Below are positions 94 through 20,121 of a DNA stretch of 64,000 nt, in pieces. Under the pieces are notes generated by a model. That model ran no database searches, was not told the DNA's origin, and saw nothing but the letters and a program-made list of their open reading frames with translations. Both the position numbers and the translations under genes were made by a program. The stretch is from Chloroflexota bacterium (lineage in GTDB: Bacteria; Chloroflexota; UBA11872; VXOZ01). The DNA lies in NCBI GenBank assembly GCA_958295775.1, contig CATQHC010000002.1:62001-126000 (forward strand), read 5' to 3'. How positions within the stretch are numbered: position 1 is the stretch's first letter; each line of letters begins with the position of its first letter.

Positions 94-109
94 GGACTTG
101 AGAGAGACC

Positions 110-1180: not shown

Positions 1181-1289
1181 GGCTGCAGACAATTGTCGTG
1201 CGATTATTCTTTAGAGACTTGCATGACTTCCCCTGGCAATTACCTCCCTGCTGATCAACCCCTAATTCGACCCCGGGCATGGCGCAACC

Positions 1290-2234: not shown

Positions 2235-2294
2235 AGAAACCTTGGCGGAGTTGAGAATGTGGATGGCAGTCTCGCCACACTAGGATAGACACAT

Positions 2295-3581
2295 ATGCGC
2301 ATTACCAACGTACGCGCAATCTGCACAGCGCCGGAAGGCATCGCCCTCGTCGTCGTCAAGATCGAGACCAGTTCTCCCGGTCTCTACGGGCTGGGCTGCG
2401 CCACGTTCACCCAGCGTCCTCTTACTGTCGTAACCGCGGTGGAGCAATACCTGCGACCTTTCCTTGTCGGCAAAGACCCTGCGGCAATCGAGGACATCTG
2501 GCAATCGGCGTACGTCAGTTCGTACTGGCGCAGCGGGCCGGTCCTGAACAACGCGCTGGCAGGTGTGGATGGTGCGTTATGGGATATCAAGGGCAAGTGC
2601 GCCAACTTGCCGCTCTATCAGCTCTTTGGCGGTAAGTGCCGCGACTACGCCGCGCTCTACGCCCACGCCGCCGGCGAGAACGTACACGAAGTGGAAGAAT
2701 CCGTACGCGCATACATGGAGCAAGGGTACGGCTATGTGCGGTGCCAAACGGCAGTGCCGGGCTTTGCCACGTATGGCGCCCGCCGAAACGTCACCAGGTG
2801 GCAGCGTTCAGCCCAGGGCGAACCCGGTGACGGCAACCGGGAACAGGCCGATCCAGAGCGGGATGCCGGTGAAGAAGCGCATAAGGCATTGGAGGGCGCC
2901 TGGGAGCCGATGCCGTACACGCGCCTCGTGCCGCGCCTCTTCGAGCACCTGCGCAACCAATTAGGCGATGGCGTGGAATTGCTCCACGACGTGCACGAAC
3001 GGATTCCGCCGGTGCAGGCGCTTGGCCTGGCGAAAGAACTTGAGCCCTACAATCTCTTCTTCTTGGAAGACCCGCTGGCGCCGGAGGACTGCGGGTACTT
3101 TCGCACCATGCGGCAGCAGACCACCACGCCCATCGCCATGGGCGAACTCTTCGTCAACCAAGCGGAGTATGTACCGTTGATCGAGGGACGGCTCATCGAT
3201 TTCATCCGGGTCCACGTCTCCGACATTGGCGGCATCTCAATGGCGCGCAAACTGGCGGCCTTCTGCGAGTTTTACGGAGTGCGCACCGCCTGGCATGGGC
3301 CCGGGGATGTCTCGCCTGTGGGTCACGCCGCCAATTTGCACCTCGATCTGGCCTGCTACAACTTTGGCGTCCAGGAGCAGCACGTCTTCAATCAAGCGGC
3401 GCAGGACGTGTTTCCCGGCACTCCCGAAATCCGCGACGGCGCGCTCTGGTCGAACGACCGTCCCGGATTGGGCGTGGAGTTGGATGAAGAATTGGCTGCT
3501 CGCTTCCCGATACCGGAAACGCCTTACGGCGGCGGCTGGCCGCCCATTCGCCGCGCAGACGGCACGGTAGTTCGCCCCTAG
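2295..3581 (+). CDS. Enolase-superfamily dehydratase, D-mannonate dehydratase (ManD/RspA) type
   Basis: This 428-residue protein belongs to the mannonate dehydratase branch of the enolase superfamily, Mg2+-dependent sugar-acid dehydratases. The conserved N-terminal capping domain carries SGPVLNNALAGVDGALWDIK. The barrel shows the family active site: HDVHER (His231, Asp232, His234), FLEDP (Glu258, Asp259), GELF (Glu284) and AWHGPGD (His334). Together these keep the metal ligands and the general acid/base residues. Many family members have low or no mannonate activity, so the substrate is uncertain. The middle section after the VRCQ motif is lower in similarity. The ATG at 2295 lies 60 bases after prmC; no sugar-acid operon surrounds it, so the pathway cannot be read from context. 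Confidence 0.85.
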   Translation: MRITNVRAICTAPEGIALVVVKIETSSPGLYGLGCATFTQRPLTVVTAVEQYLRPFLVGKDPAAIEDIWQSAYVSSYWRSGPVLNNALAGVDGALWDIKGKCANLPLYQLFGGKCRDYAALYAHAAGENVHEVEESVRAYMEQGYGYVRCQTAVPGFATYGARRNVTRWQRSAQGEPGDGNREQADPERDAGEEAHKALEGAWEPMPYTRLVPRLFEHLRNQLGDGVELLHDVHERIPPVQALGLAKELEPYNLFFLEDPLAPEDCGYFRTMRQQTTTPIAMGELFVNQAEYVPLIEGRLIDFIRVHVSDIGGISMARKLAAFCEFYGVRTAWHGPGDVSPVGHAANLHLDLACYNFGVQEQHVFNQAAQDVFPGTPEIRDGALWSNDRPGLGVELDEELAARFPIPETPYGGGWPPIRRADGTVVRP

Positions 3582-3798
3582 GCAGGCGGTGGCGCTTCGT
3601 GCACGACTGGGCAGTCAATCTTGAGGCTAGGCTGGGCTCAGGCGGGAGGTGCTCAGACATTGCGGGTCTCAAATTTCGCTTGATTTTCCGGTCACCCGGC
3701 TAGCCTGAGACAGAGATACCTTCACAGACCTTGCGCAATTGCCCATTTTCGGTGCAATGGGCTTGCGCACTACTCGCGGTGTTCGACCTCTTGCCTGC

Positions 3799-3804
3799 TA
3801 TAAT
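3799..3804 (+). promoter_or_regulatory. -10 box for the tRNA-Arg gene
   Basis: A perfect TATAAT lies 18 bases before the first base of the tRNA. I see no good -35 hexamer at 16-18 bases upstream, so only the -10 is claimed. Confidence 0.55.
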
Positions 3805-3821
3805 TAACAAGCAACCAGCTT

Positions 3822-3897
3822 GCGCCTGTAGCTCAGTGGACAGAGCATCGGTCTTCGGAACCGAGGGTCGGGGGTTCGAATCCCTCCAGGCGTACCA
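3822..3897 (+). tRNA. tRNA-Arg (anticodon TCG)
   Basis: The sequence folds into a full cloverleaf. The seven-pair acceptor stem joins GCGCCTG with CAGGCGT, with one G-T pair at the end. The anticodon stem TCGGT/ACCGA encloses the loop CTTCGGA, giving anticodon TCG, which reads CGA arginine codons. The T arm has the standard TTCGAAT loop. The discriminator base is A3894 and CCA is encoded at 3895-3897. It is the only tRNA gene I find in the window. Confidence 0.96.
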
Positions 3898-3920
3898 GCC
3901 GCTTTAGCAGTCTGATCCAT

Positions 3921-3940
3921 TCGGGGAGCCGTCTCCCCGA
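3921..3940 (+). terminator. Hairpin after tRNA-Arg
   Basis: A perfect 8-bp inverted repeat (TCGGGGAG, loop CCGT, CTCCCCGA) lies 23 bases after the tRNA CCA end. There is no T-run after it, so it could be a processing or weak termination structure rather than a standard rho-independent terminator. Confidence 0.45.
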
Positions 3941-3952
3941 AGCTCTCTTGGG

Positions 3953-4939
3953 ATGTCCCCAACGGCTAGCAATCCCCAATTCTCGTTGTCTCGGTTCAAA
4001 GGAGCGGATGTGAAGGGCCAGAGTGACGGGCCTGTAATTCGCGCGACGGGCATATCTAAGCAGTTTGGCGAGACCGTCGCAGTGGACGGAGTTTCTTTCG
4101 AGGTTAGCCGCGGCGAGACCTACGGCCTGCTCGGCCCGAACGGCGCGGGCAAGACCACCACCATGCGCATGGTAAGCGGCTTATCTCCTTTGACTGCAGG
4201 GGAACTGACTGTTGCAGGTATCGACGTGTCCCGGCAGGCGAGAGAAGTCCGCAACATCCTGGGTGTCGTTACCCAGGAGGACGGCCTCGATACTGATCTT
4301 GATGCCAAGAGTAACCTCACTACGTACGGCTTCATCGCCGGGCTTTCACGCAAGGAAGCCGAAAAGCGAGCGGACGCCGTGCTAATGTTCTTCGACTTGA
4401 CCGACAAGGCGGATGGGGAAATCGACTATCTTTCCGGTGGCATGAAGCGGCGTCTCGCGATAGCCAGGGCCTTCATGACGAACCCGCAAGTAATCGTGCT
4501 CGACGAGCCCACAACCGGCCTAGACCCGCAAGGCCGCAATCGCGTCTGGCAAGAGTTGGATACGATGAAGCAGGCAGGCGTGACTATTCTCATGTCCACG
4601 CATTACATGGATGAAGCCACGGCCTTGTGCGACCGGCTTGCCATTATGCACCACGGCAAGATCCTGGCTGAGGGCGCGCCGGACGAAGTTGTAAACAGGC
4701 ACGCGGGGCCGGAGGTGGCGCAGGTACGGGTGTCTAACGGCGTACGGCAAGACGTTGTGGGCTGGATCGAAGGCGCCGGATTCGACTATCGGGAAGCCGG
4801 CGCGATAATCACCGTAACATCCCGTAACGGCGAGCGTCCCGATCTCTCCGGCTTGGAAGGTGTACGCGTCTCCTACCGGTCTTCGAATCTCGAGGACGTT
4901 TTCTTGGCCATGGCGGGCAGGAAGCTGACGGACGAGTGA
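3953..4939 (+). CDS. ABC-2 type exporter, ATP-binding protein (DrrA/NodI-like)
   Basis: This 328-residue cytoplasmic ATPase powers the permease encoded next. Walker A GPNGAGKTTT starts at residue 61, the signature LSGGMKRR at about 160, Walker B is IVLDEP and the H-loop is in MSTHYMDEA. A C-terminal domain of about 80 residues, typical of the DrrA/CcmA class, follows. The first 25 residues are poorly conserved, and a GTG at 4010 could be the true start. Its stop overlaps the start of the permease. The substrate could be a drug, lipid or polysaccharide; the sequence does not say which. Confidence 0.9.
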   Translation: MSPTASNPQFSLSRFKGADVKGQSDGPVIRATGISKQFGETVAVDGVSFEVSRGETYGLLGPNGAGKTTTMRMVSGLSPLTAGELTVAGIDVSRQAREVRNILGVVTQEDGLDTDLDAKSNLTTYGFIAGLSRKEAEKRADAVLMFFDLTDKADGEIDYLSGGMKRRLAIARAFMTNPQVIVLDEPTTGLDPQGRNRVWQELDTMKQAGVTILMSTHYMDEATALCDRLAIMHHGKILAEGAPDEVVNRHAGPEVAQVRVSNGVRQDVVGWIEGAGFDYREAGAIITVTSRNGERPDLSGLEGVRVSYRSSNLEDVFLAMAGRKLTDE

Positions 4940-5727
4940 ACATCGCCGCTCCCAACACCTACCTCGCCGGTTTCAGGCTGCGCAGCATTACCGGGATTTG
5001 GTACCGGCACGCCCTGGTGCTCAGGCGCAACTTGCTTACATCCTTATCTTGGTATTTCGTAGAGCCATTCGTCATCCTCATGGCCATTGGCATCGGTGTT
5101 GGCACGCTGGTGGATAGTGTCGATGGGGTACCGTACGCAAAGTTCGTTACTCCCGGAGTCATCATTGGCTCTGCCATGTTCCATGCCATTTTCGAGTGCG
5201 CTTGGGGTGGATTCATGCGCATCCAAAAGGGTGTGTATGAAACAACGCTGACCGCACCGGTGAGCACGCGTGAGATTGCTATGGGCGACTTAGCCTGGTC
5301 CATGACCAGGGCGGTCCTCACGGCTGTGTGCATCGGGACGGTGGCGGCACTGTTTGGGTGGATTGACAACGTGTCCGGCGTGGGCGTCCTGCTGGCAGCG
5401 GCGCTGGTTGGCATGCAGTTTGGGGCGCTGGGCCTCATATTCGCCGCGCTCTCGCCAAATGTGCACATCCTCTCCCTGACGTTTACGGTGGTGGCGAGCC
5501 CCCTATACTTCTTCAGCGGCGCATTCTTCCCCATTTCCGTCATGCCGGACTGGGTGGAGCCGCTTGCGTGGGCCGCGCCCCTAACTCCCTCCGTGCATTT
5601 GGCACGGGGATTTGTGACCGGGGACTTGGGAATGTCGCACCTGTATTCCGCTCTCTACGTAGTCGCCCTAACCGCCGTGCTGTTCCCTATCGCCGCCAGC
5701 CTCTTGCGCAGACGTCTGGTCAAGTGA
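4936..5727 (+). CDS. ABC-2 type exporter, permease (DrrB/NodJ-like)
   Basis: This 263-residue membrane protein has about six hydrophobic segments spread over its length and belongs to the ABC2_membrane family. The first loop runs LTSLSWYFVEPFVIL, and the conserved segment near the C-terminus is LYFFSGAFFPISVMPDW, both typical of NodJ/DrrB permeases. The GTG start at 4936 overlaps the TGA of the ATPase gene by four bases, so the two are translationally coupled and form one exporter. The partner assignment is firm; the cargo is unknown. Confidence 0.88.
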   Translation: MNIAAPNTYLAGFRLRSITGIWYRHALVLRRNLLTSLSWYFVEPFVILMAIGIGVGTLVDSVDGVPYAKFVTPGVIIGSAMFHAIFECAWGGFMRIQKGVYETTLTAPVSTREIAMGDLAWSMTRAVLTAVCIGTVAALFGWIDNVSGVGVLLAAALVGMQFGALGLIFAALSPNVHILSLTFTVVASPLYFFSGAFFPISVMPDWVEPLAWAAPLTPSVHLARGFVTGDLGMSHLYSALYVVALTAVLFPIAASLLRRRLVK

Positions 5728-6069
5728 GCCGGGCCGCCTGCACTTGACTGAAGAATTGCCCTGCTCTGTGAGTGGAGAATACCTCGAGGCTATGCTCGCC
5801 GTAATGTGGGCAATGGGCTTGCCACGAGCTGCTTGCCAAGTATTCCGCTACTCGCCAACCAGACGCGGGCAACTGTAAGCGAAGCTACACAAGGTCCACC
5901 GTCAAGGTGCTACAGTGGAAATAATAGCGTACTGGACTGGTGTCAGGCCGGAGTGTGCGACAAAGCCTGTTGTGCGGCTAGGTTGATCTGCGTTCCAGCG
6001 CTGAGCCAGCGCGAACCGTTCCTAGAAAACACCGGCGTTTTCTTGTAACTCTTCCAAGGAGGAAGGACT
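5728..6069. other. Intergenic region before the peptide-binding lipoprotein gene
   Basis: No gene is supported in these 342 bases. A short hairpin, GAAAAC and GTTTTC around a six-base loop (6025-6042) followed by TTGT, lies shortly before the ribosome site AAGGAGGAAGG of the next gene. It may be a leader hairpin or a weak terminator. I see no clear sigma-70 promoter. Confidence 0.5.
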
Positions 6070-7992
6070 ATGCGACTCTTTCGGAAACCTGCGCCACAGA
6101 ACCGGCGCGCTACGCTAGCGCCGCAGGCCGGCGGCCTGTGGCGGGCAGGGCTGCAGCCGCATGCGATCGTTCTCGCCCTGCTGGGTCTCATGGCCGTGCT
6201 GGTCCTGTCCTCCTGCGGCGTATACACCACGGTTGAACCTACCTTACAGCCCGACCATGTCGAGCATGTCGACACTCACGACCATGAGACCGTCGTGGCC
6301 GAACTCAAGGAAAGTGCCAAGGGGTTTGCGTATGCAATCGGCAAGCACGGCGGACAGGCGACCTACTCTACCATCGGCGAACCGCTGACTTTCAACTTGG
6401 CGCTTGCCAATGACGCTTCGTCATCCGGCTATCTCAGCTATCTCTTCGAGGGCCTCACTGAGACCTCGTGGTTGACGAATGAGGTCGAACCGGCGCTGGC
6501 GGAGTCCTGGGAGCATTCCGAGGACGGCCTGACGTGGATCTTCCATTTGCGCAAAGACGTGACGTGGCACGACGGTGAGCCTTTCACGGCCAGTGACGTA
6601 GACTTCACTTTCAACCGCATCATCTATAACGACGAAATTCCCACCAGCGACCGTGCTGCTTTTACGTTTCGCTACATCGATGAGGAAACCGGCGCATGGA
6701 CTGAAGGCCGCATGACTGTGCGGGCGCTTGATGAGTACACAGTCGAGTTCGTGCTTCCTATTCCTTTTGCGCCGTTCCTCCGCTCCATGGGCGCGGCAAT
6801 CTATCCAAGGCACATCCTTGAATCATATGTGAATGACGGCACCTTTGAATCCGTATGGGACATCGAGACGGACCCGCGTGATGTCATTGGCACCGGGCCG
6901 TTCACCATCGAGCGTTACGACACCGAAGAGCGGCTGGTGCTGCGCCGCTACCCGAATTACTGGCTCAAAGACGCCGCGGGCAACAGCCTGCCGTACCTGG
7001 ATGCCATCGTCTATCACATTGTGGAGGACTTCGAGACCGAACTTGAGATGTTCAAGGACGGTGTAACGGACGTCCACGGTGTCTTGGGCGAAGAGTATGC
7101 ACACCTAAGGCCGTTTGAGGCGGAGGGCAACTTTACCATCTACCGTCGCGGCCCCGGGTTTGGGACTTCGTTCCTCACCTTCAACCTGAACCCCGGCGCC
7201 AACGCCGAGACCGGTGAACCCTACGTTGCGCCGGAAAAGCTGGCGTGGTTTCAGAATACGCAGTTTCGCCGGGCGATTGCCCACAGCGTCGACAAAGCCG
7301 CAATAGTTGCGGAGATCCAGCATGGGCTCGGCTACCCGCAGTGGTCGTCCGTCAGTCCGGCGGCCGGCGATTTCCACAATCCCGGCGTGCGCCGCTATCC
7401 CTACGATATCGCCGCGGCCAAGCAAATCCTGGATGAACTCGGCTGGGTGGATACCAACGGCGACGGCATCCGCGAGGACCAAGACGGCAACACCATCGAA
7501 TTCACTTTGGCGACGAACGGTGACAATAGCGTGCGCGCGGCGATATCTCAGCGCATTGCTGAAGGCTTGGTGGCAATCGGCATCAAGGCGAACTATGAGT
7601 CGGTAGAATTCGGCGAGCTTGTCGGCCAATTGACGGCTTCCTACGATTGGGAGGCCATCGTCATCGGCTTGACCGGCAGCACGGACCCGTATAGCGGCAT
7701 TGTCATCTGGCATAGCAGCGAGTCCCTGCACCTGTGGCACCCCAACCAGCCGGAACCCGCCACAGAGTGGGAAGCCGAGATCGATGATCTCTATATCCGG
7801 GCCGCCCAGGAACTCGACCACGCCAAGCGCGTGGAGCTCTACCACCAGGCCCAAGACATCATCGCCGAAAACCTCCCCCTTATCTACACCACCCAGTCCG
7901 AACGCCTCACCGCCTCCCGCAACGTGTTTGGGAATACAACCCCGACGCTCTACGGGCTGTGGGATATTCGGTATCTGTATCGGTTGGATTAG
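6070..7992 (+). CDS. Peptide ABC transporter substrate-binding lipoprotein (SBP_bac_5 family)
   Basis: This 640-residue solute receptor is of the DppA/OppA class (family 5). An unusually long n-region of about 33 residues precedes a hydrophobic core ending in the lipobox LSSC, with Cys49 as the lipidated residue. A histidine-rich stretch follows (His63, 66, 70, 72). The mature domain shows the family block LRKDVTWHDGEPFTASDVDF and the later FRRAIAHSVDK. A strong ribosome site (AAGGAGGAAGG) precedes the ATG. No permease or ATPase genes adjoin it, so it must use transporter parts encoded elsewhere. Peptide is the default ligand, but family 5 members also bind nickel, heme or sugars. Confidence 0.9.
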   Translation: MRLFRKPAPQNRRATLAPQAGGLWRAGLQPHAIVLALLGLMAVLVLSSCGVYTTVEPTLQPDHVEHVDTHDHETVVAELKESAKGFAYAIGKHGGQATYSTIGEPLTFNLALANDASSSGYLSYLFEGLTETSWLTNEVEPALAESWEHSEDGLTWIFHLRKDVTWHDGEPFTASDVDFTFNRIIYNDEIPTSDRAAFTFRYIDEETGAWTEGRMTVRALDEYTVEFVLPIPFAPFLRSMGAAIYPRHILESYVNDGTFESVWDIETDPRDVIGTGPFTIERYDTEERLVLRRYPNYWLKDAAGNSLPYLDAIVYHIVEDFETELEMFKDGVTDVHGVLGEEYAHLRPFEAEGNFTIYRRGPGFGTSFLTFNLNPGANAETGEPYVAPEKLAWFQNTQFRRAIAHSVDKAAIVAEIQHGLGYPQWSSVSPAAGDFHNPGVRRYPYDIAAAKQILDELGWVDTNGDGIREDQDGNTIEFTLATNGDNSVRAAISQRIAEGLVAIGIKANYESVEFGELVGQLTASYDWEAIVIGLTGSTDPYSGIVIWHSSESLHLWHPNQPEPATEWEAEIDDLYIRAAQELDHAKRVELYHQAQDIIAENLPLIYTTQSERLTASRNVFGNTTPTLYGLWDIRYLYRLD

Positions 7993-8162
7993 TGAGGGTC
8001 TTTTGACTGGTTGCCAAATTACGGAGCGACGCTGGCAAGTGAACTGTCAGTGTCGCTCCGATCTATGTCATTGCACATCGGGGCAAAAACAGCCAAAGAG
8101 ACTAGCGCTTTAGTTTCCGACAGGGCTGTTGCTACCTCCAGATGCACTTCCATGTCATGCCA

Positions 8163-8168
8163 TATAAT
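8163..8168 (+). promoter_or_regulatory. Candidate -10 box for the DUF4338-nurA-herA operon
   Basis: A perfect TATAAT lies 44 bases before the TTG start of the first gene of the operon. No convincing -35 box is seen at the standard spacing. It stands within the 219-base gap after the lipoprotein gene, which otherwise has no gene. Confidence 0.4.
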
Positions 8169-8211
8169 GGATGTAATTCAGCTAAAACAGAGCGCGAAAT
8201 GAGACTGGCAT

Positions 8212-9390
8212 TTGTCGGCTAACCCTGACATCACTGAGAAGAGTGACCCAGAACTCCTTAAGGCTCGCATTTTGGCGTCCCTTGAGAAGCAAGGTTTTGT
8301 GCTGAGGGATAACCAGTTCTACTTGCCCAGCGACTTGGATAAGGACACGATTAGATCCCTGCATTCTGAAGCAGTTTGCCATAAATTGAGTCAGCGCAGG
8401 AAAGGACTTATCAAGCATGAACCCTCACTATTGCAACGTTTTGCTTCTGGCAAAGACATTGAAATCAATAAAATGTACCCCAGGCTGGTCGAGGTTCATC
8501 CGAATTCAGATGATGAATTGTTATTCCGATATGCGAGTTTGCACTGGAGCATTCCGGTATCTTCGGGGTATGGGCGAAGATTGAGATTCCTCGTAGTGGA
8601 TCAAAACTCGGACAAGCTGATGGGCCTATTCGGACTAGGGGATCCCGTATTCAGTTTAAGGAACCGGGACCAGTGGATAGGTTGGGAAAAGGAAGGTCGA
8701 ATTGAGAGGCTTCACCACGTTGTAGATGCTTACGTGCTGGGAGCGGTTCCCCCGTATTCTTTCTTGCTAGGAGGCAAGCTCATTGCTTTGCTGGCCTCAA
8801 GCAATGAAGTGCGAGAGGCATTTAGGGTCAAGTATGAAGGAAGGGCATCCTTAATTCAGCAAAGAGAATTACCCGGGCAGATTGCTTTGGTTACAACAAC
8901 CTCTGCTCTGGGTAGGTCGTCGCTCTATAACCGTTTGAGATTCAATGATCGATTAGTGTTCAGGTCGGTAGGGTTCACTCGTGGATATGGTGAATTTCAC
9001 ATTTCCAACGGGATTTACGAGTCTATGGTGGAGTTTGCTAGAACAAATTCAAGAGCTACTGCTAAGCATGAATCATGGGGAAATGGATTCAGGAACAGAA
9101 GAGAGGTACTTCAAAAGGTGCTCACTGCATTGGGGTTGCCGCAGGAATGGCGGAATCATGGAATCAATCGAGAGATATTCGTCTCTCCGTTGGCGGAGAA
9201 TGCTCGCCAATTCCTAAGTGGTGGTGCCTCGAAGCTGGACTACTATGATCAACCTGTAAGCGAACTCTTCGGTTGGTATCGTGAAAGATGGCTGATGCCA
9301 CGTAGTCAACGTGAAAAAAGGCACATTGACTGGAGCCCTCAAGAGTTGCAGCTATGGTCAAACGGAGAAGGCAATGGACGAACAGTCTAG
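8212..9390 (+). CDS. DruA-like DUF4338 protein, candidate anti-phage component
   Basis: This 392-residue protein looks like a member of the DUF4338/DruA family, known from the Druantia phage-defence system. The recognisable core includes SLHWSIPVSSGYGRRLRFLV (from about residue 109), RDQWIGW (152-158) and the later TTTSALGRSSLYNRL (from 228). The molecular activity of the family is not known. The start must be a TTG at 8212, because a TGA is in frame at 8200 and the first in-frame ATG is 84 codons in. Codons are visibly AT-richer than in the flanking genes, suggesting transfer. Its 3' end overlaps the start of the nurA gene by 17 bases. None of the helicase partners of known Druantia types (DruE) is here; HerA takes that place. 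Confidence 0.75.
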   Translation: MSANPDITEKSDPELLKARILASLEKQGFVLRDNQFYLPSDLDKDTIRSLHSEAVCHKLSQRRKGLIKHEPSLLQRFASGKDIEINKMYPRLVEVHPNSDDELLFRYASLHWSIPVSSGYGRRLRFLVVDQNSDKLMGLFGLGDPVFSLRNRDQWIGWEKEGRIERLHHVVDAYVLGAVPPYSFLLGGKLIALLASSNEVREAFRVKYEGRASLIQQRELPGQIALVTTTSALGRSSLYNRLRFNDRLVFRSVGFTRGYGEFHISNGIYESMVEFARTNSRATAKHESWGNGFRNRREVLQKVLTALGLPQEWRNHGINREIFVSPLAENARQFLSGGASKLDYYDQPVSELFGWYRERWLMPRSQREKRHIDWSPQELQLWSNGEGNGRTV

Positions 9391-10534
9391 CTTTAGGGAA
9401 TTGCCAAAGTCGCTTGTTGACGAGGTGCTTAGCCGAACAAAGGGAATTGGGAAAGAACTATTGGAATCCTTTGAGGAGTTACGCAAGAAAAAGCAAGAAT
9501 GGCGCGACCAGCTAGTTGACTCTGGCAAGGCAAAACGTGACTCCAGCCTGCCACGAGTGCAAAGCCCCACCACTTGTGGCGTAGACGGGTCTTATGCCGT
9601 TGAAAGACTGCTCGCCACGGATTTGGTCGTAGCGGGCGCGGTAGCGGTCGAAGGTTTGACTCCTCCTTCTGAGAAACGGTTCTGGCCCGAGCCCACTCAC
9701 TTTGTTCATGTCGAGACTGAAGCCCATAATCCTGATACTGGGTCTGTCTTGCGCGCAGGGATGATTGGTATGGAATTGCACTTGGCCGCAGACGCCCCTC
9801 ACGAGCTTGTACTTTTGGATGGTTCATTTACCACGCCAGCCATATACTTCAATCAAGGATTCAACAAAGCTAGAGAGTATCCAAACCTCAAGACCGTTGA
9901 AGAATACTTAATCAGGAAAGTCAGGTTTTTCTTGGATGCTTATTGTACTGTGTTAGCAGCCCAGCGTAGTGACCGTCAGTGGGTAGCGGTGCCGAAGTAC
10001 ACAACTCGTCGAGAAATAGGGAGTGAATTGGGCTGGCCAGAGTCTTATGATGACCGTGGGCTACTTAGCTCTGTCTTGGAAGCAGGCGAATACACGTCAC
10101 CTACTCAACTATTGCAACCTTCTCAGCCATGGCACATCGACACTTCAGTGGTCGATGGTAATGTCGAAAACGCTGAACGAGATGAAATCAACAAACTGGT
10201 CGCCCAAGTAACTAGTCTCTTGGGCGACATCTATGTTCTCTACTATCGTCCCCACTCCTATATGCCAGCTTTGCGGTTGGAGATGAGCCGAGCCATTGCC
10301 AACAATCAAGGTCGGTTGAGTATGGTTTTGCAGGGCGTCAAGGATCAATGTGGTACCGCGGCCATCATGGAACCATACCCACTCTATCTGGCGGACAGAA
10401 TGGTAAAGCACTTGCCCCAAGCTGTTCCTGCATTTCGCCAAATTGCCAGTCAGTATCTTGCTGAAGACTACCAAGGTAACATTGATGATGTATTCGTTGG
10501 CCTTCATAGCTATCGGACAGAGTCAGGGAGGTGA
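9374..10534 (+). CDS. nurA: NurA-domain nuclease
   Basis: This 386-residue protein has the NurA 5'-3' nuclease fold. The two metal-binding aspartates sit in GVDGSYA (Asp71) and LLDGSF (Asp149). The C-terminal part has YYRPHSYMPALRLEM and EPYPLYLADRMVKHL, as in NurA proteins. In archaea NurA acts with the HerA translocase in DNA-end resection; in bacteria such pairs are found mostly in defence loci. The ATG at 9374 is preceded by GGAGAAGG, better than longer in-frame starts that would overlap the previous gene further. The coiled-coil-like N-terminus (about residues 15-50) is charged. It overlaps the helicase gene by four bases. Confidence 0.85.
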   Translation: MDEQSSFRELPKSLVDEVLSRTKGIGKELLESFEELRKKKQEWRDQLVDSGKAKRDSSLPRVQSPTTCGVDGSYAVERLLATDLVVAGAVAVEGLTPPSEKRFWPEPTHFVHVETEAHNPDTGSVLRAGMIGMELHLAADAPHELVLLDGSFTTPAIYFNQGFNKAREYPNLKTVEEYLIRKVRFFLDAYCTVLAAQRSDRQWVAVPKYTTRREIGSELGWPESYDDRGLLSSVLEAGEYTSPTQLLQPSQPWHIDTSVVDGNVENAERDEINKLVAQVTSLLGDIYVLYYRPHSYMPALRLEMSRAIANNQGRLSMVLQGVKDQCGTAAIMEPYPLYLADRMVKHLPQAVPAFRQIASQYLAEDYQGNIDDVFVGLHSYRTESGR

Positions 10535-12300
10535 GAGTGACAAATCAGAAACTGAGCCAGTTAGCTGACCAGTCTGAGAGAATAGGCGTAATAGGCTCTC
10601 CGTCTTCTACTTCGGAACTCTCTCTTGACATCTTGGCTAGTGCAGTTAGTAAGAAGCTTGTAGGTGAGCTGGCTTTATTTCGCTATTTGCAAGATAACTC
10701 TGATCACTATGCGCTTGGACAGATCACTGAGATTGTGCTGCGAAACATCTGGCATGAAGACCCTACTATGCGGAGCCTGATTCGCCAGCGTGGCACGGTC
10801 GATGCTGTGAGTGAACGGCAGGATACCCACCAAGGTGAGATGGGCGTCAGCGCAGTTTTCTCTGACCAGAATGGAATGTACCGCCCCAGCAGTCTTGGGA
10901 CAGTCCCGGCTACAGGAACGCTCGTTCATCTAGTTGATGATCAGGTCCTAGATGTGTTGCTCGAACCATACAAGGAACAGATCTTTTATTTGGGTCATGT
11001 TTACGGCTCTAGACCTAAATTGCCTCTATGGTTCAAGCACTTCGATTCCGGTGTAGATGGAGCAGGTGAAGCCTACCATCTGGGGATATTCGGTAAGACC
11101 GGTTCAGGAAAATCAGTCTTAGCGAAGATGATCATGCTTGCCTACGCCCGGCACAAGAAAATGGGAATTTTCGTGATTGACCCACAAGGGGAGTTCTCTC
11201 AAGATGTTACAGGAACAAGAGCCCGTGGTGGTTTGCGACTTCCAGTAATGGAGACCTTAGAGCGACTCAACAAGCCAACACGGTTGATTGGCGTACGAAA
11301 TCTAGTCTTGGACAGGTGGGATCTCTTTGCTCAAATTCTCTATGAGTCATCCTTTTTTGAAAGACTCACCATGCCAAAAGGGGAGAATAGGGAGTTAGCT
11401 GCAAGTTCCTTGTGTGACAATTTGAAGAAAGCCAAGGTCAAGCTGAAGGCTCTACACTTACGGGAGTCTTTTGACAAAGCTTGGTCAATTCTTGGGCAAG
11501 AGGACGTCCAGAAGGTTTTCTACCGCACGCCTGGATCCCGTGAGCGCTTTAATTCCGTGTTTGCCAGTGCTGACCGGCATGAATTCTACGATGAAATTTG
11601 GGCTCCGATCGCTCGACTATTCGACGCTAGTCGGCCCGATGTGCGAACAGTTGACTCTATTCTGAATGAGTTGTTCGATGCACAGGAAAAGCCTCTGACG
11701 GTAGTAGACTTGTCTGTCAAGAGCGACACTAGTATCTTTTGGAACGATGCTATTCAAGCGTTAGTCATCAAGCGGCTCTTGGAAGGGATTCGCGGATCCG
11801 CAGAACGTGCATACGCTCAAGAGCAAAGCCTCAATACCCTGGTAATGATGGATGAAGCTCACCGTCTGGCCCCCGCCGGGAACCCCGATGATGAAACAAT
11901 GAAGCAAGTCCGCAACATATTCATCGACTCCGTGCGTACTACTCGAAAGTATGGGGTAGGCTGGATGTTTATTTCACAGACCCTATCAAGTTTGCACCGT
12001 GAGATCGCTGAGCAATTGCGCATTTACTTTTTTGGATTTGGTCTTTCAATGGGAACGGAGTTTCAGTCCCTCCGAGATCTCGTTGGCGGACGAAATAAGG
12101 CTCTTGATCTCTACCAATTATTCCGTGATCCCCAGTCATCTTTCGACATAGCTACGCGCGAATACTCGTTCATGACTATTGGACCCGTTTCCCCACTTTC
12201 ATTTGCCGGTACACCACTTTTCCTAAATGCCTTTTCCAGCCCTGAGGAGTTCTTAGGCGCAAATTCAATCTCACTGCAGTCAATCGAAGCACTGCCCTAG
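10531..12300 (+). CDS. herA: HerA-like DUF87 ATPase/translocase
   Basis: This 589-residue protein has an N-terminal HAS-barrel-like part (about 1-130) and a FtsK/HerA-type ATPase core. Walker A GKTGSGKS is at 188-195 and Walker B MMDEAHRL includes Asp441-Glu442. A sensor-like segment, WMFISQTLSSL, follows. HerA hexamers pump DNA and stimulate NurA. The GTG at 10531 overlaps the nurA stop; a second GTG at 10537 is also possible. The tight coupling to nurA and to the DUF4338 gene argues that the three act as one complex or pathway. AT-rich codon use is shared by all three. Confidence 0.88.
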   Translation: MRVTNQKLSQLADQSERIGVIGSPSSTSELSLDILASAVSKKLVGELALFRYLQDNSDHYALGQITEIVLRNIWHEDPTMRSLIRQRGTVDAVSERQDTHQGEMGVSAVFSDQNGMYRPSSLGTVPATGTLVHLVDDQVLDVLLEPYKEQIFYLGHVYGSRPKLPLWFKHFDSGVDGAGEAYHLGIFGKTGSGKSVLAKMIMLAYARHKKMGIFVIDPQGEFSQDVTGTRARGGLRLPVMETLERLNKPTRLIGVRNLVLDRWDLFAQILYESSFFERLTMPKGENRELAASSLCDNLKKAKVKLKALHLRESFDKAWSILGQEDVQKVFYRTPGSRERFNSVFASADRHEFYDEIWAPIARLFDASRPDVRTVDSILNELFDAQEKPLTVVDLSVKSDTSIFWNDAIQALVIKRLLEGIRGSAERAYAQEQSLNTLVMMDEAHRLAPAGNPDDETMKQVRNIFIDSVRTTRKYGVGWMFISQTLSSLHREIAEQLRIYFFGFGLSMGTEFQSLRDLVGGRNKALDLYQLFRDPQSSFDIATREYSFMTIGPVSPLSFAGTPLFLNAFSSPEEFLGANSISLQSIEALP

Positions 12301-12367
12301 ACTGTCAATTGGGCCGACAGAGCCTTACATCCGCGTGCCCAATTAAAGGCCACTCAAGAGAGGGTAC

Positions 12368-12529
12368 TTACTCCAAGCTGCTGAAGCGGTTGGAGAGGAT
12401 TTCGTCGATGATGGCGACGGAGAAGAGCAGGGCGAAGGGGATGGCGAGCATGAGGAAGATCGCGACGAGCGAGATGAAGAAGAGCACGGTGTCGGCTGCG
12501 CTGAGCGTTGACATCCACTGGATAAACAT
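12368..12529 (-). CDS. Small single-span membrane protein
   Basis: A 53-residue protein with one strongly hydrophobic stretch (about residues 13-41) flanked by MFIQWMSTLSAAD and a short polar tail ending in RFSSLE. The ATG at 12529 is preceded by GTGGAGGCAAGGC, a good ribosome site, which is the main support that it is real. It is convergent with the herA-like gene and lies 165 bases from the IS30-family element. I do not recognise a family. It could be a small stress or toxin-like membrane peptide, or a decayed gene remnant. Confidence 0.5.
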   Translation of the reverse strand: MFIQWMSTLSAADTVLFFISLVAIFLMLAIPFALLFSVAIIDEILSNRFSSLE

Positions 12530-12694
12530 GCCTTGCCTCCACTGGCATTGTCGCATGGCAGTGCGGGAGCTCCTCGACACACGGCAATAGCGTCCCGTAC
12601 TTCACGAAAGAGCGTAACAAAGGGCGGCATGCAAGGCAACCGCTGTCGTGGCTGCTACTCTTCCATGCGTGCAGGGCAGAGAAGATAGATTCTC

Positions 12695-13724
12695 TAGACT
12701 CACAAACGAAGTGCAACACTTTGCTAAGGTGTTGCCATGGGAAAGAGATACACGCATTTTACCATTGAAGAGCGGTGTGAAGTGGCCAGACTTCTCGCCG
12801 CGGGGCAGTCGCAGCGGAAAATTGCTACAGCTCTGGATCGCGCGCCATCGACCATTACGCGGGAGGTAATACGCAATGGGTCCGGGAAGCAGGGGTATCA
12901 GGCGAGATATGCCCAGGAACAGGCGTTGGCGCGGCGTTGGGGCGGCGGCAAGCTGGAGCGAGATGCTGCCTTGCGGGAGGTGGTGCTGGGATACTTGCGA
13001 GCTGGCTGGTCGCCGGAGCAGGTATCCGGACGCTTGGCGCGGGACGCCAGCGGCCCGGTCATCTCCCACGAGACCATCTATCGCTTTATCTACGCGCAAA
13101 TGGCACGCACCAAGGACTACACGTGGCGGCACTACCTGCCGCGGGGCAAGTCCAAACGCGGCTGGCGGGGGCGCAGAGGCGGCAGTCCGGCCTCGTTCAT
13201 TGCCCAGCGCCGACCGCTGGCAGAACGGCCCCAGACGGCGGCAGACCGCCAATCCCCCGGTCATTGGGAGGTGGACCTGATGCTCTTTCGCACCTACGGC
13301 CAAGCCGTCTTGACCTTGCACGAGCGCCACTCGCGCTTGCTCATCGCCACGCGACCGCCCGGCAAGGCCGCCGAACCTATCGCCACTGCCATGCACGACC
13401 TGTTCGCTTCCTTGCCTCCAGAGTGGCGTCAAACCGCCACCTTCGACAACGGCACCGAGTTCGCGCGCCACTACCGCCTCCATGACCTGGGGATGCAGAC
13501 CTTCTTCTGCGACACCCACTCTCCCTGGCAGAAAGGCGGCATCGAAAATGCTATCGGGCGCCTGCGGCGCGGGCTGCCGCGCAAGACCGATCTGGCGACC
13601 GTAACCGAGGAACGCTTTGCGCAACTCGTGCAGGCCTACAACCACACCCCGCGCAAGTGTCTTGACTACCAAACGCCAGCAGAAGTATTCATGAACCAAG
13701 TGTTGCACTTGAAATGTGAGTCCA
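12695..13724 (+). mobile_element. IS30-family insertion sequence
   Basis: The element carries one transposase gene between imperfect inverted repeats at 12698-12721 and 13698-13721. Of the 24 positions 20 match, with the four differences adjacent; the outer ACTCACA and the inner AAGTGCAACACTT are identical. The match can be stretched three bases outward, giving the limits used here. The right repeat lies inside the 3' end of the transposase frame. I see no clear target-site duplication. The right flank is a palindromic repeat (13726-13750) followed by a long tandem-repeat array. Confidence 0.85.
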
Positions 13725-13747
13725 CCTTCCCGCGTGCGCGGGCATGA
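12737..13747 (+). CDS. IS30-family transposase
   Basis: This 336-residue DDE recombinase begins with an HTH region typical of IS30 (HFTIEERCEVARLLAAGQSQ). The catalytic triad is Asp180 (HWEVDLM), Asp237 (FDNGTEF) and Glu270 (GGIENAIGR), giving the D-D-33-E spacing of the family. The frame is intact, so the element may be active. The ATG is at 12737. The last residues are encoded by the right inverted repeat and by flanking DNA, as the stop lies 23 bases beyond the presumed element end. Confidence 0.92.
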   Translation: MGKRYTHFTIEERCEVARLLAAGQSQRKIATALDRAPSTITREVIRNGSGKQGYQARYAQEQALARRWGGGKLERDAALREVVLGYLRAGWSPEQVSGRLARDASGPVISHETIYRFIYAQMARTKDYTWRHYLPRGKSKRGWRGRRGGSPASFIAQRRPLAERPQTAADRQSPGHWEVDLMLFRTYGQAVLTLHERHSRLLIATRPPGKAAEPIATAMHDLFASLPPEWRQTATFDNGTEFARHYRLHDLGMQTFFCDTHSPWQKGGIENAIGRLRRGLPRKTDLATVTEERFAQLVQAYNHTPRKCLDYQTPAEVFMNQVLHLKCESTFPRARA

Positions 13748-14614
13748 CGGACGTTGCGCCCTCGCGTTTCCCCCTAGCATTCGCGGGAGTGACGGACGAC
13801 GCGCCCCTCGCGATACCCTCTCACACTCGCGGGAATGACGGACGACGCGCCCCTCGCGTTTCCCCCTCACATTCGCGGGAATGGCGGACGACGCGCCCCT
13901 CGCGTTCCCCCCTCACGTTCGCGGGAGTGACGGACGATGCGAGCCTCGTGTTACCCTCTCACACTAGCGGGAATGACGGACGACGCGTGCCTCGCGATAC
14001 CCTCTCACATTGGCGGGAGTGACGGACGATGCGCCTCTCGCGTTACCCTCTCACATTGGCGGGAATGACGGACGACGCGTGCCTCGCTTTACCCTCTCAC
14101 ACTGGCGGGAATGACGGACGACGCGCCCCTCGCGTTACCCTCTCACATTGGCGGGAATGACGGACGATGCGAGCCTCGTGATACCCTCTCACCTTCGCGG
14201 GAGTGACGGACGATGCGCCCCTCGCGTTACCCTCTCACATTGGCGGGAGTGACGGACGATGCGAGCCTCGTGATACCCTCTCACCTTCGCGGGAGTGACG
14301 GACGATGCGCCCCTCGCGTTACCCTCTCACATTGGCGGGAGTGACGGACGATGCGCCTCTCGCGTTACCCTCTCACATTGGCGGGAATGACGGACGACGC
14401 GTGCCTCGCGATACCCTCTCACACTAGCGGGAGTGACGGACGATGCGAGCCTCGTGATACCCTCTCACACTAGCGGGAATGACGGACGACGCGCCCCTCG
14501 CGATACCCTCTCACATTCGCGGGAATGACGGACGACGCGCCCCTCGCGTTCCCCCCCTCACATTCGCGGGAATGGCGAACGATGCGCCCTTCGGGTTGCC
14601 TTCTCACACTCGCG
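13741..14614. repeat. 46-bp tandem repeat array (minisatellite), about 19 units
   Basis: Units of 46 bases follow one another in direct order, marked by GACGGACG at 13746, 13791, 13837, 13883, 13929, 13975 and so on to about 14574. Only the first and last intervals differ by one base (45 and 47). Units vary at a few fixed positions (for example GCGCCCCTCG against GCGAGCCTCG, and CATTGGC against CACTAGC). The piece CGCGGGAATGACGG is half of the dispersed palindromic repeat seen elsewhere here. The period is not a multiple of three, so no protein repeat is encoded. The array begins at the right edge of the IS30 element. The following 140 bases to moeA hold no gene. Confidence 0.93.
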
Positions 14615-14755
14615 CATTTGCCTGTCATTTGCAACGAACAATTGACGACATTCCTTGCGCAGTTCTCAGGCCGCCGTCGCGCCCGAATCACGTGCGGGGC
14701 AGGGGGTTGTTGGGGTTGTCGAGTTAAGCTATACACTCAATTGTGTGGTTGGCGA

Positions 14756-16390
14756 TTACGCCTCTTCCGGCCAGTCGAGCATCTGCACGGTGACTTCGCT
14801 GCCTGGCTCGACACAATCTGTATGCTCGGAGATGATGGCGAGGCCGTTGGCTTTGGCGAGTGACGTGAGCAGTTGCGATCCCTGCTCGCCAGTGAGACGG
14901 GCAGTGTAGCCGTGGTCGTCGCGCTCGACGATCACGCGCACGAACTGGCGCCGCCCGTGGTTTTCCATGGCGTCCAGGAAGCGGGCCTTGACGGTGGTCT
15001 TGTGCAGGCTGGTGTGGCCCTGCATGACGAGGAGCGCCGGGCGGACGAATTCCTCGAACGTGACGTAGGCGGAGACGGGATTGCCGGGCAGGCCGACGAC
15101 GGGCACCCGGCGGCTGTGGCTTGCGGATGAAAGATGGATTCCCGCTTGCGCGGGAATGACGGGACCAGAATCCTCCGTAGGAGTGACGCCCTCACCCTGG
15201 CCCTCTCCCCCGGGAGAGGGAAGGAAACCCGCTTGCGATGGGATGACGCCCTCACCCTGGCCCGCGCCCTTGGGAGAGGGAAGGATGCCCGCTTGCGGGG
15301 CAGCGATGGAGCCTTGCTCACCCATAGCGGACCCTATATGGTCTTTCACTTGAAACTTCTCAGTTTCCTTGGCCGACGCAAGGGATGACTGGATTCCGGC
15401 TTTCGCCGGAATGACCGAATCGTCCGCTTCCGCAGTGGGTTGATTTTCTATTTCAACCTCTTGAGCGGATGTTTCAATGTATCCAAATGCCAGCGGTTTG
15501 CCGGGCCGCATGCGGATGCGCCAGAAGTCGATTTCACCCTCCGCGCCCAGCACGTTGCGCACCAGATCGTAGTCGCCCATGGAGACACCGCCAATGGTCA
15601 CAATCAGGTCGCAATCGTGGCAGGACTGCAAAGCCTGACGGATTTCCGCCACCGTGTCGCCGACCACGGGCAGGCGACGTGGAAGACCGCCATAGGTTGT
15701 CACCAGCGCTTCCAAGGCATGCGCCGCGCTGTTGCGCACCTGCCCCGGCTGCAGGGGTTCTGTGATATCCACCACCTCATCGCCGGTGGGGATGACGGCT
15801 ACCATGGGCCGCCGATAGACCGTTGCCTGCGCCTTGCCTAGAGAGGCCATTACGCCAATCTCGGCAGGCCGAATGCGCTTGCCCTGCGCGAGCACGCGCT
15901 CGCCAACCTTGATGTCTTCAGCGCGAAAACGCACATTGTCATAATATTCCGGCGGCAGCAGGATGCCGACAGTGGCGGGATCACCGCTCGCGCCGGGCGG
16001 CGTGCCGAACTTCGCCCAGTCGGTGCGGTCGGTATCCTCGAACGGCACCACGGCGTCGCTGCCCGGGGGCACCGGCGCGCCGGTCATGATGCGCACCGCC
16101 TCGCCCGGCCCCAGCGGGTTAGTAGGAACGGAGCCGGCAGCCAGGTCGCCAACGACGCGCAAGTGCACGGGCTGCGCCTCGCTCGCCGCCTGCGTGTCTG
16201 CGAAACGCACCGCGTAGCCGTCCATGGCCGAGTTATCGAACGCCGGCACGTCTTCCGCGCTGATTACGTCCTCCGCGAGCACGCGCCCGAGCGCATCCAA
16301 CAAAGTTACCGTCTCAGTCTCGAGCACAGCAAACTGGGAGACGATGCGCGCAAACGCTTCCTCGACGCTGAGCATACGGTCTTCGGGCAT
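14756..16390 (-). CDS. moeA: Molybdopterin molybdenumtransferase with a repeat-derived insert
   Basis: MoeA inserts molybdate into adenylylated molybdopterin to finish the molybdenum cofactor. This 544-residue version starts at the ATG at 16390 (MPEDRMLSVEEA). Family blocks are present in order: the DNSAMDGYAVR substrate loop, IMTGAPVPPGSDAVVP, IPTGDEV, TIGGVSMGDYD, RPGKPLAFGYI and VVGLPGNPVSAYVTF. Typical MoeA is about 400 residues; the excess is a 122-residue insert between the last two blocks (about residues 306-427), which in other MoeA proteins almost touch. The reading frame through the insert is intact. No other molybdenum-cofactor gene adjoins it. Confidence 0.92.
   Translation of the reverse strand: MPEDRMLSVEEAFARIVSQFAVLETETVTLLDALGRVLAEDVISAEDVPAFDNSAMDGYAVRFADTQAASEAQPVHLRVVGDLAAGSVPTNPLGPGEAVRIMTGAPVPPGSDAVVPFEDTDRTDWAKFGTPPGASGDPATVGILLPPEYYDNVRFRAEDIKVGERVLAQGKRIRPAEIGVMASLGKAQATVYRRPMVAVIPTGDEVVDITEPLQPGQVRNSAAHALEALVTTYGGLPRRLPVVGDTVAEIRQALQSCHDCDLIVTIGGVSMGDYDLVRNVLGAEGEIDFWRIRMRPGKPLAFGYIETSAQEVEIENQPTAEADDSVIPAKAGIQSSLASAKETEKFQVKDHIGSAMGEQGSIAAPQAGILPSPKGAGQGEGVIPSQAGFLPSPGGEGQGEGVTPTEDSGPVIPAQAGIHLSSASHSRRVPVVGLPGNPVSAYVTFEEFVRPALLVMQGHTSLHKTTVKARFLDAMENHGRRQFVRVIVERDDHGYTARLTGEQGSQLLTSLAKANGLAIISEHTDCVEPGSEVTVQMLDWPEEA
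15110..15475. repeat. Palindromic-repeat insertion inside moeA
   Basis: This 366-base in-frame block carries several intergenic-type repeats. Palindromes lie at 15136-15160 and 15391-15415 (arms CCGGCTTTCGCCGG in the latter), both ending in GGAATGAC. A 60-bp direct repeat occupies 15185-15244 and 15245-15304, each with CCCTCACCCTGG and GGGAGAGGGAAGG. In protein they read as SVIPAKAGIQ, VIPAQAGIH and two copies of AGxLPSPxGxGQGEGV, the hallmark of repeat-derived peptide. The block is positioned where an external loop is expected, which may explain why it is tolerated. Confidence 0.88.
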
Positions 16391-16696
16391 TGTTTTCTTG
16401 TGCCTTCCGGTTGGGCTATGGGTGACACCGACTTCGTGAAACGATGCATCTCGCAATGGGCGATGGCCTACCCGCGCGTTGGTCTTCTAAGGCGTGCCGA
16501 GATCTCATTGCCGCAATCGATTGGGCATTGCGCGAAAAGCTCCGCGCTGGACCACTCTTCACAAGAGGCGGGGGACAAGCCCCCGCGCTACAAGCAAGAG
16601 ACCTTTCAAGGTGTCACGGATTGAGCGCTGTTGCGCCAATGTTTCCGAAATTTCTGGGTTCGACAACTCTTGGGTTCGACCGAAACGCGCTACTCT
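16391..16696. other. Intergenic region with a hairpin repeat (16568-16586)
   Basis: No gene is supported in these 306 bases between moeA and the aldehyde dehydrogenase gene. The notable item is a perfect 7-bp inverted repeat, GCGGGGG and CCCCCGC around ACAAG, at 16568-16586. On the plus strand CTAC follows it rather than a T-run. It looks like another dispersed intergenic repeat rather than a terminator. Confidence 0.5.
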
Positions 16697-18145
16697 TTAT
16701 CCTTGCAGGTTGAAGACTACCAGCTTCAGGTCGGTCATTTCTTCAATGACGAACTTGGGGCCTTCGCGACCCATTCCGCTTTCTTTCACGCCGCCGAACG
16801 GCATCTGGTCGGCGCGGTACCGTGATGTGTCATTGATCATCAGCGCGCCGATACGCACTTGCCTGGCGGCTTTCCAAGCCGTCTCCAGATCGTTTGTAAA
16901 GATACCGCCCTGCAAGCCGTAGCGTGAGTCATTTGCAAGAGCAATGGCCTCATCAATGTCGTCAAAGACCGTAACGGTTACTGCCGGGCCGAAGAGCTCG
17001 TCCTTGAAAATCTGCATATCGGAGCGTACACCGCTAACCACGGCCGGTGAGACGAACTGGCCCTCGCGCACGCCGCCGCAGAGCACATTCGCGCCGTCCG
17101 CAGCCGCTTCTTTGAAGCAAGCCTCGACGCGCTCGGCGGCGCTCAGCGTGACCATGGGACCCACGTCGGTGTCGTCTTCGTAGGAGGGCCCTACCTGCAT
17201 CTTCTCAACGTGCGGCACCAGCGCCGCGAGGAATTCCCCCTCCACGTCGCGATGTACCAGGATGCGCTGGGCGGAGGTGCACACTTGGCCGGCGTTCATG
17301 TAGCCGCCTTGTGCGACCGCATCGGCAGCTACGGCCACGTCGGCGGTCTTATCTACAATCACGGGTGAGTTGGCGCCCAATTCCAGGGTGGCGCGGCGGA
17401 GTCCGATGCTGTTGCGCAAATGCCTGCCGACCTCTGGTGAACCGGTGAAGGAATACATGGCAAAGCGCTCGTCTTGGATGAGCCACTCGCCGACGGTCGC
17501 GCCGCCGCCGACTATCAGGTTAAGGTGACCCGGCGGCAACCCGGCGTCGAGAAATGCCTGGCAGATCTTCGCTGCCGTGACCGGCGTGGCGCTGGCGGGC
17601 TTGAGCACCACCGTGTTACCGGCCGCAATTGCGGGCGCGATCTTATGCGCTACAAGAATGGCGGGGAAGTTGAACGGCGAGATGCAGCAGATCACGCCAA
17701 TCGGCTGGCGCAGCGTAAAGGCCAGGCGGTCCTCCGATCCTACCGCGGCCTCCACCGGAATCTGCTCACCGTGGATGCGCTTCGCCTCTTCCGCCGCGAC
17801 CAGGATTGTGCTGGCGGCGCGGGCGACTTCGATGCGCGCCTCTTTGATGGGTTTTCCGCCTTCCATGCTCATGTGGTAGGCGATGTCCTCGACGCGCTCC
17901 AGGAGAAGCTGTGAGACCTTGTGGAGGATTTCATAGCGTTGGTAGGCGGAAAGCTCTTGCTTGTCATACGCGCGCTGTGCCGCCTCGATGGCGGCGTCTA
18001 TGTCGGCTTGTGTCGCTTCCGGCAGCGTAGCGAACACCTGGCCGTCGTTGGGGCTGCGTACTTCCAGCAGCTTGCCGTCGCGCCGTTCGATCCACTCGCC
18101 GTCGATTAGCAATCCAAAATGCTTTGGTTCTGTCGTAACCGCCAT
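16697..18145 (-). CDS. NAD(P)-dependent aldehyde dehydrogenase
   Basis: This 482-residue enzyme of the ALDH superfamily oxidises an aldehyde to its acid. The catalytic cysteine is in GQVCTS and the general-base glutamate in ELGAN. The cofactor-binding ISPFNFP and SFTGSPEVG segments are present. The sequence is closest in style to lactaldehyde, GAPN-like or phosphonoacetaldehyde dehydrogenases, so the substrate is not fixed. The ATG at 18145 (MAVTTEPKHFG) has AAGGAGAAC upstream. It is divergent from the carbonic-anhydrase-like gene, with a 262-base gap that must hold both promoters. No operon partner indicates a pathway. Confidence 0.9.
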   Translation of the reverse strand: MAVTTEPKHFGLLIDGEWIERRDGKLLEVRSPNDGQVFATLPEATQADIDAAIEAAQRAYDKQELSAYQRYEILHKVSQLLLERVEDIAYHMSMEGGKPIKEARIEVARAASTILVAAEEAKRIHGEQIPVEAAVGSEDRLAFTLRQPIGVICCISPFNFPAILVAHKIAPAIAAGNTVVLKPASATPVTAAKICQAFLDAGLPPGHLNLIVGGGATVGEWLIQDERFAMYSFTGSPEVGRHLRNSIGLRRATLELGANSPVIVDKTADVAVAADAVAQGGYMNAGQVCTSAQRILVHRDVEGEFLAALVPHVEKMQVGPSYEDDTDVGPMVTLSAAERVEACFKEAAADGANVLCGGVREGQFVSPAVVSGVRSDMQIFKDELFGPAVTVTVFDDIDEAIALANDSRYGLQGGIFTNDLETAWKAARQVRIGALMINDTSRYRADQMPFGGVKESGMGREGPKFVIEEMTDLKLVVFNLQG

Positions 18146-18407
18146 AGTATTCGTTCTCCTTGCATTGCCTTGTGTGCTTAGTGCGTATTCCATATCACCA
18201 TAGCATAGGCTTTCGCATTCGTACACGCGCTCTTGGCCCCAGAGCGGGTGACCCTGGCGACACGCGCGTCGGTCGCCCGTTGCCAGCAGGCAACAGTGCT
18301 ATCATGGCCGTGATGAGCTGCTACTGAGGGCCACGCCATGAGCTAAGCAAGCAATCTGTTTCTGTGAGATCTGCGCAGCAAAATTCCATCAAGAGGGGAG
18401 AAGACGC

Positions 18408-18941: not shown

Positions 18942-19088
18942 CTGAGGGCACTTGCTACGGAAGCGGCTGCCGACTCTTTGCGGCGCATGAGGCTGACTGA
19001 TGACGGAAGGTGCGCAAGATTCTTCGACTTCGACCTCGTGCGCCACAGTCGCTGCCGCTGACGGCGCCTTGAGAACCGCACCACTTGT

Positions 19089-19901: not shown

Positions 19902-20121
19902 TGCGGCTGTATCTCCTTGGCAGTCTTCCTAATCGCGCCGTCTCACCAATAGACAAGAGAAACGCGTCATCGCTTAGTCGCTCAGGTTCGCGAGCTTCTC
20001 TCCCCTGCCTATTCTACCTTTCCACAATGTTCGGTTGAATGGCAGCCGCCTTGACGCGCACAGGTCGCTGTGCAAACATAGTAGGCGTTCCCCTGCCGTA
20101 AGTGAAGCACCCCCTGTTTTC

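Follow-up and report, generated by a model that had tools for sequence, protein, structure and literature searches.

A DruA-NurA-HerA gene triad inherited as a mobile unit and predicted to act in defence

A three-gene segment absent from close relatives

The window analysed here (a stretch of 64,000 nucleotides from a Chloroflexota bacterium) carries three genes on the same strand, encoding a DruA protein, a NurA-family nuclease and a HerA-type ATPase in that order (Table 1), each of which scored above its Pfam cut-off (381.8 bits against 27 for DruA, 29.3 against 21 for NurA and 45.8 against 23.2 for DUF87/HerA). The open reading frame of NurA as called mechanically begins at a GTG at 9311, and the ATG at 9374 was taken as its start. 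The coordinates give overlaps of 17 bases between DruA and NurA and of 4 bases between NurA and HerA, as read in the initial annotation, and the AT-richer block that it described is likewise present, the GC content being 0.47-0.51 over the three genes compared to approximately 0.59-0.65 in the flanks.

The triad lies on an inserted segment that is absent from three congeneric genomes (G033, G077 and G213), in each of which its flanking genes lie next to each other on a single contig and the match to the window jumps from 7989 to approximately 12369, with just 150-260 bp (approximately) of unrelated sequence in its place. DruA was found in only 2 of 6 congeneric genomes and 4 of the 6 were without any HerA match, while G033, which has one of the empty sites, carries on a separate contig a second triad, whose NurA-HerA is different. 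An insertion sequence beside the triad had also been pointed out, and an IS30 transposase gene is indeed there, but comparison with the congeners showed its presence to be incidental: a 178-bp stretch (12369-12547) that is approximately 85-94% conserved in the three empty sites, and that is probably a small minus-strand membrane-protein gene, separates the IS30 from the triad, and so the IS30 is a separate insertion outside the unit. On the far side of this stretch, a 46-bp tandem repeat in at least 16 registers (13668-14657) adjoins the IS30 transposase gene, and beyond it a MoeA-like gene (14756-16456) has a low-complexity insert with VIPAKAGIQ and LPSPKGAGQGEG repeats; alignment to some of the congeners breaks in the region of this gene.

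Table 1. Features of the triad and its surroundings, in window coordinates
Feature	Position	Strand	Description	Basis
Inserted segment	7990..12368	.	Approximately 4.4 kb, absent from three congeneric genomes	Comparison with G033, G077 and G213
DruA (DUF4338/PF14236)	8212..9390	+	392 aa, GNAT-fold protein, TTG start	Pfam, PADLOC, AF2 model
DruA residues 177-190, GAVPPYSFLLGGKL	8740..8781	+	Motif-A-like, at the position of a CoA loop	Alignments and model
DruA residues 235-241, RSSLYNR	8914..8934	+	S236, S237, Y239, R241 and the preceding G234 invariant	Alignment
NurA-family nuclease	9374..10534	+	386 aa, ATG start	Pfam NurA, AF2 model, alignments
HerA-type hexameric ATPase/translocase	10531..12300	+	589 aa, GTG start	Pfam DUF87, alignment, PDB profile matches
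IS30 transposase	12737-13747		Beside the triad

Co-inheritance, module exchange and mobility

The initial annotation had staked its proposal on the co-inheritance of the three genes, and this is what was found. When 400 genomes of the home phylum were searched for close homologues of the window HerA, these were present in approximately 19, with NurA adjoining HerA in every informative case and DruA adjoining NurA in 15 of 18 loci, the three exceptions (G126, G182 and G174) belonging to one genus; DruA itself was found in just 29 of the 400. A HerA alignment scan of 84,980 species genomes gave 80 loci that were kept, several of them sharing genomes with the home-phylum set and 8 ending at a contig edge before DruA, and DruA accompanied NurA and HerA in 68 of the remaining 72 informative loci of this HerA clade (counted by hand). 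Judged from their record titles, the 80 loci span approximately 20 bacterial and archaeal phyla, and a Ferroglobus MAG among them represents the Archaeoglobi. When two further phyla were sampled evenly, that of a Bacillota MAG and that of Methylococcus, DruA was present in 9 of 10 loci, a set which takes in HerA proteins just 30% identical to the query. The DruA-NurA-HerA triad is therefore a real inherited unit. No conserved fourth gene accompanies it, as clustering of 595 neighbouring open reading frames gave none present in more than four loci.

The NurA-HerA loci that genuinely lack DruA are those of the single home-phylum genus already mentioned, one with a type I HsdR gene upstream (L182) and one in genome G487. 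A further candidate, in Pyrinomonas (L120), was rejected since its genome has a full triad at another locus, which makes L120 an orphan NurA-HerA copy; an IscB-like RRXRR-HNH protein is encoded near this orphan copy (L120, 1980-3407). NurA-HerA pairs of the Thermomicrobium type, which belong to the same clade, were also seen without DruA (L183, L184 and L042-L044), with a glycosyltransferase gene upstream in L042 and L043 (the same loci as L183 and L184).

That the three genes adjoin by chance, or are what is left of an ordinary Druantia locus after loss of its helicase, is so improbable as to deserve little further thought. The same three-gene order is repeated in dozens of phylogenetically scattered genomes, and this conservation excludes chance adjacency. 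The window DruA does match the Druantia DruA1 model of PADLOC (391 bits, with weak matches for HerA and no match for NurA), which would suit a Druantia remnant, but the DruE-linked DruA proteins of Druantia form a clade of their own (support 100/97) among the triad DruA proteins, in a tree that is unrooted and so does not fix the direction of descent.

Within the unit, DruA and NurA-HerA recombine as two modules, yet stay linked. Distances between NurA and HerA proteins are well correlated (Mantel r = 0.80), compared to 0.58 and 0.50 for DruA against the other two, and individual loci have exchanged one module or the other: compared to the window, L116 has a NurA 80% and a HerA 75% identical but a DruA just 34% identical, whereas in L056, a locus of the window's own genus, DruA is 52% identical and NurA and HerA are only 27% and 35% identical. 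The gene order NurA-HerA-DruA was found in L104 and L105, which have a HerA of a different lineage, and in L247. That the linkage is kept despite exchange, other gene orders and other HerA lineages is as functional dependence predicts. In one locus (L099, 9668-16019) two unknown genes separate DruA from a HerA and a DnaQ-like exonuclease downstream; this is possibly a further DruA-HerA system with another nuclease.

The triad is horizontally mobile and patchy in its distribution. In L251 (8625-16742) it lies directly downstream of the TniA-TniB-TniQ genes of a Tn7-like transposon, and one triad turned up in the alignment scan on a putative viral contig (L230, cut inside DruA); a single-protein HerA scan of viral contigs gave no matches. 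These two copies, together with the service of HerA-like proteins in DNA transfer too, could indicate a selfish, plasmid-targeting or maintenance module, or another conflict module (for example in the control of conjugation or competence) in place of phage defence. We regard this as very unlikely, since no relaxase, toxin-antitoxin or transfer gene is recurrent beside the triad, either in the clusters of neighbouring open reading frames or among the 111 immediate neighbours that were scanned.

When these 111 immediate neighbours were scanned with PADLOC and Pfam, defence genes turned up here and there with no dominant partner. Genes in or beside the operon encode a TmtA-like Sacsin/NOV_C protein (L144 and L152), GmrSD (L140), a BrxD-like ATPase (L172), HsdR (L182) and a type ISP restriction-modification protein (L247), and the link to defence islands is drawn from such individual loci with no enrichment claimed. 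Three of the 111 neighbours are UvrD-PDDEXK helicase-nucleases, which would suit a module for DNA repair or recombination in which NurA-HerA resects ends and DruA regulates or acetylates the repair machinery, as would the end-resection complexes formed by archaeal and Deinococcus radiodurans HerA-NurA (9x1m and 7f6d among the structure matches). This explanation is unlikely, although less so than a selfish module. The patchy distribution, in which three congeners have the empty site and four of the six are devoid of any HerA match, is not that of a stable chromosomal repair locus, and the AT-richer composition, the spread over approximately 20 phyla and the defence genes inside the operon likewise count against it.

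The proteins and the proposed role of DruA

HerA-NurA pairs are established as carrying out ATP-driven degradation of double-stranded DNA, and as judged from alignments both proteins of the triad keep their catalytic residues. In NurA, D71 (9584-9586) and D149 (9818-9820) are invariant in 36 proteins, very distant ones included, E303, E333 and D341 are nearly so, and DG motif I was aligned to PDB 3tai. In HerA, Walker A (GKTGSGKS, 188-195, with K194 at 11110-11112), Walker B (DE, 441-442) and RTTRKYG (469-475) are invariant columns. The AF2 model of NurA (pLDDT 89) aligned with Z scores of 20.8 to NurA 2ygk, 20.4 to the NurA of HerA-NurA 9x1m and 13.4 to the nuclease chain of TdpAB, and the PDB profile matches of HerA are to HerA and TdpA. 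From the family knowledge and the retained residues we infer that NurA-HerA forms an ATP-driven machine which degrades double-stranded DNA, in which the ring-shaped HerA ATPase would translocate the DNA and feed it to the NurA nuclease for degradation. The triad proteins may form a complex.

The AF2 model of DruA (pLDDT 91.1) has a GNAT fold, and its structural alignments are dominated by GNAT proteins (Z 8.4-9.7, over residues 85-347 or thereabouts), while in a Foldseek search with the same model every E-value was above 0.001 and a sequence-profile search brought up no relative of solved structure. DUF4338 has been termed a GNAT domain and is fused N-terminally in some DndF proteins (PMC10853773). 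Among solved structures the model matched Mom of phage Mu best (8bv8; 179 residues, rmsd 4.1, Z 9.7). Other GNATs reached Z 9.2, close enough to count as tied with Mom, and the DruA-Mom profile comparison was not significant (hhalign probability 0.4, E 0.17).

In the motif-A-like segment of DruA, G177, P180, P181, Y182, G188 and K189 are invariant in 36 homologues, and the segment follows strand 170-178 of the model, where GNATs bind the CoA pyrophosphate, so that in the model it could act as an acyl-CoA loop. R122 is also invariant in the alignment. The invariance of R122, K189, S236, S237, Y239 and R241 suggests that DruA is an active enzyme. DUF4338 proteins are encoded by cyanophages and a pelagiphage as well, one of them annotated as "methylcarbamoylase mom", which fits an enzyme of phage self-protection; two are single genes of marine phages (L227, 1063-2361, and L228, 1213-2334), with no NurA or HerA annotated beside either.

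Taking all versions of its mechanism together, we think it likely that the triad is a compact anti-invader (defence) module. NurA-HerA would supply degradation and the role of DruA would concern target choice or activation, with DruA supplying the discrimination between self and non-self and picking the target which NurA-HerA degrades. The slightly preferred reading, which we put forward tentatively, is that DruA marks self DNA: it would chemically modify the DNA of the host in a Mom-like manner and NurA-HerA would destroy unmarked incoming DNA, making a three-gene modification-plus-restriction system parallel to TdpABC, whose third gene TdpC is a phosphorothioation enzyme that marks DNA. In its chemical form, to which we commit ourselves a shade less, DruA may be Mom-like and depend on CoA to give host DNA an acyl-type mark, with NurA-HerA destroying DNA that does not carry it.

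Marking by DruA, rather than sensing, is the most speculative part of this best explanation. Marking is favoured by the GNAT fold and the conservation of its pocket residues, by Mom being the nearest solved match, by the phage-borne relatives and by the TdpABC precedent. It is weakened by the tied lead of Mom and the non-significant profile comparison, and doubt also comes from the existence of NurA-HerA pairs without DruA, which a strict requirement for modification would forbid unless their function had changed, and from the occurrence of DruA beside DruE in Druantia and within DndF, settings in which it is harder to see a separate role in marking. Deletions in Druantia type I lose protection rather than kill the cell, which counts against marking too.

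The alternative within defence, a serious contender that we nevertheless hold to be somewhat less probable than marking, is that DruA is a sensor, loader or activator which recognises invading DNA or a phage protein and recruits or switches on NurA-HerA, its GNAT fold being regulatory or acting on a protein. The initial annotation had taken this view, with DruA recognising the invading DNA. The evidence of co-inheritance and mobility serves it equally, the sharing of DruA by Druantia (beside DruE) and some DndF proteins (PMC10853773) suggests a plug-in adaptor, NurA-HerA exists without DruA, and the two-component DUF4297-HerA system works without a modification gene (PMC11291478). Against a sensor, the invariant Y182, K189, S236, S237, Y239 and R241 near the predicted cofactor loop and the intact GNAT fold point to catalysis, and the phage homologues of DruA at the two loci looked at are without annotated NurA or HerA beside them.

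If marking by DruA is true, a GNAT mark would for the first time underlie a cellular modification-restriction system, this one present in both bacteria and archaea, and Druantia would possibly use the same mark. DruA is a central but unexplained component of Druantia, and the triad offers a small setting in which to learn its role and makes a chemical question testable, namely whether DruA proteins mark DNA. It would also add a compact three-gene defence system of very wide distribution which is unnamed in the catalogues searched.

Comparison with known systems

The initial annotation knew of no described system with this exact triad, and our searches agree, as no description of the triad or of its pairs was found in the open literature, in PADLOC or in NCBIfam. 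In Druantia type I (DruABCDE), too, a DruA from this family is partnered by a DNA-dependent ATPase, and the window DruA is 38-40% identical to those of Druantia loci on plasmids, but DruB, DruC, DruD and DruE are absent from the window locus, where NurA and HerA follow DruA. That HerA and NurA stand in place of the DruE helicase, as had been proposed, is borne out by Pfam and by the absence of any DruE-sized open reading frame from positions 1-20000 of the window (the longest being 640 aa, compared to 1594-1827 aa for DruE in relatives).

In the DUF4297-HerA system a HerA hexameric ATPase and a nuclease are encoded in one operon and give defence without a modification gene (PMC11291478). The coupling of HerA with a nuclease in one operon is common to such systems and the triad, but here the nuclease is NurA and not DUF4297, with DruA as the third gene, and the window HerA scored only 14.3 and 15.6 bits against the NCBIfam models HerA_antiphage and HerA_antiphage_2 (NF042943 and NF042944; cut-offs 800 and 850). 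The archaeal and Deinococcus HerA-NurA end-resection complexes share the NurA fold (2ygk and 9x1m) and the HerA central domain with the triad, which differs in being mobile, patchy, linked to DruA and absent from most close relatives.

Mom of phage Mu, which modifies DNA adenine, resembles DruA as the best solved match of its model but differs in having no significant profile similarity to it, with other GNATs within 1 Z, and DruA has an extra N-terminal helical part and a C-terminal extension. In TdpABC of Thermus the HerA-like TdpA and the NurA-like TdpB (TdpAB, 8wfd/8wet) are related to the NurA-HerA pair described here, while the third gene of the triad encodes the GNAT-fold DruA and not TdpC, with no sign of phosphorothioation. 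The triad is thus distinct from Druantia, as it is without DruB-E, from the described HerA defence families, as its HerA scores are far below the cut-offs, and from TdpABC, as it has DruA where that system has TdpC.
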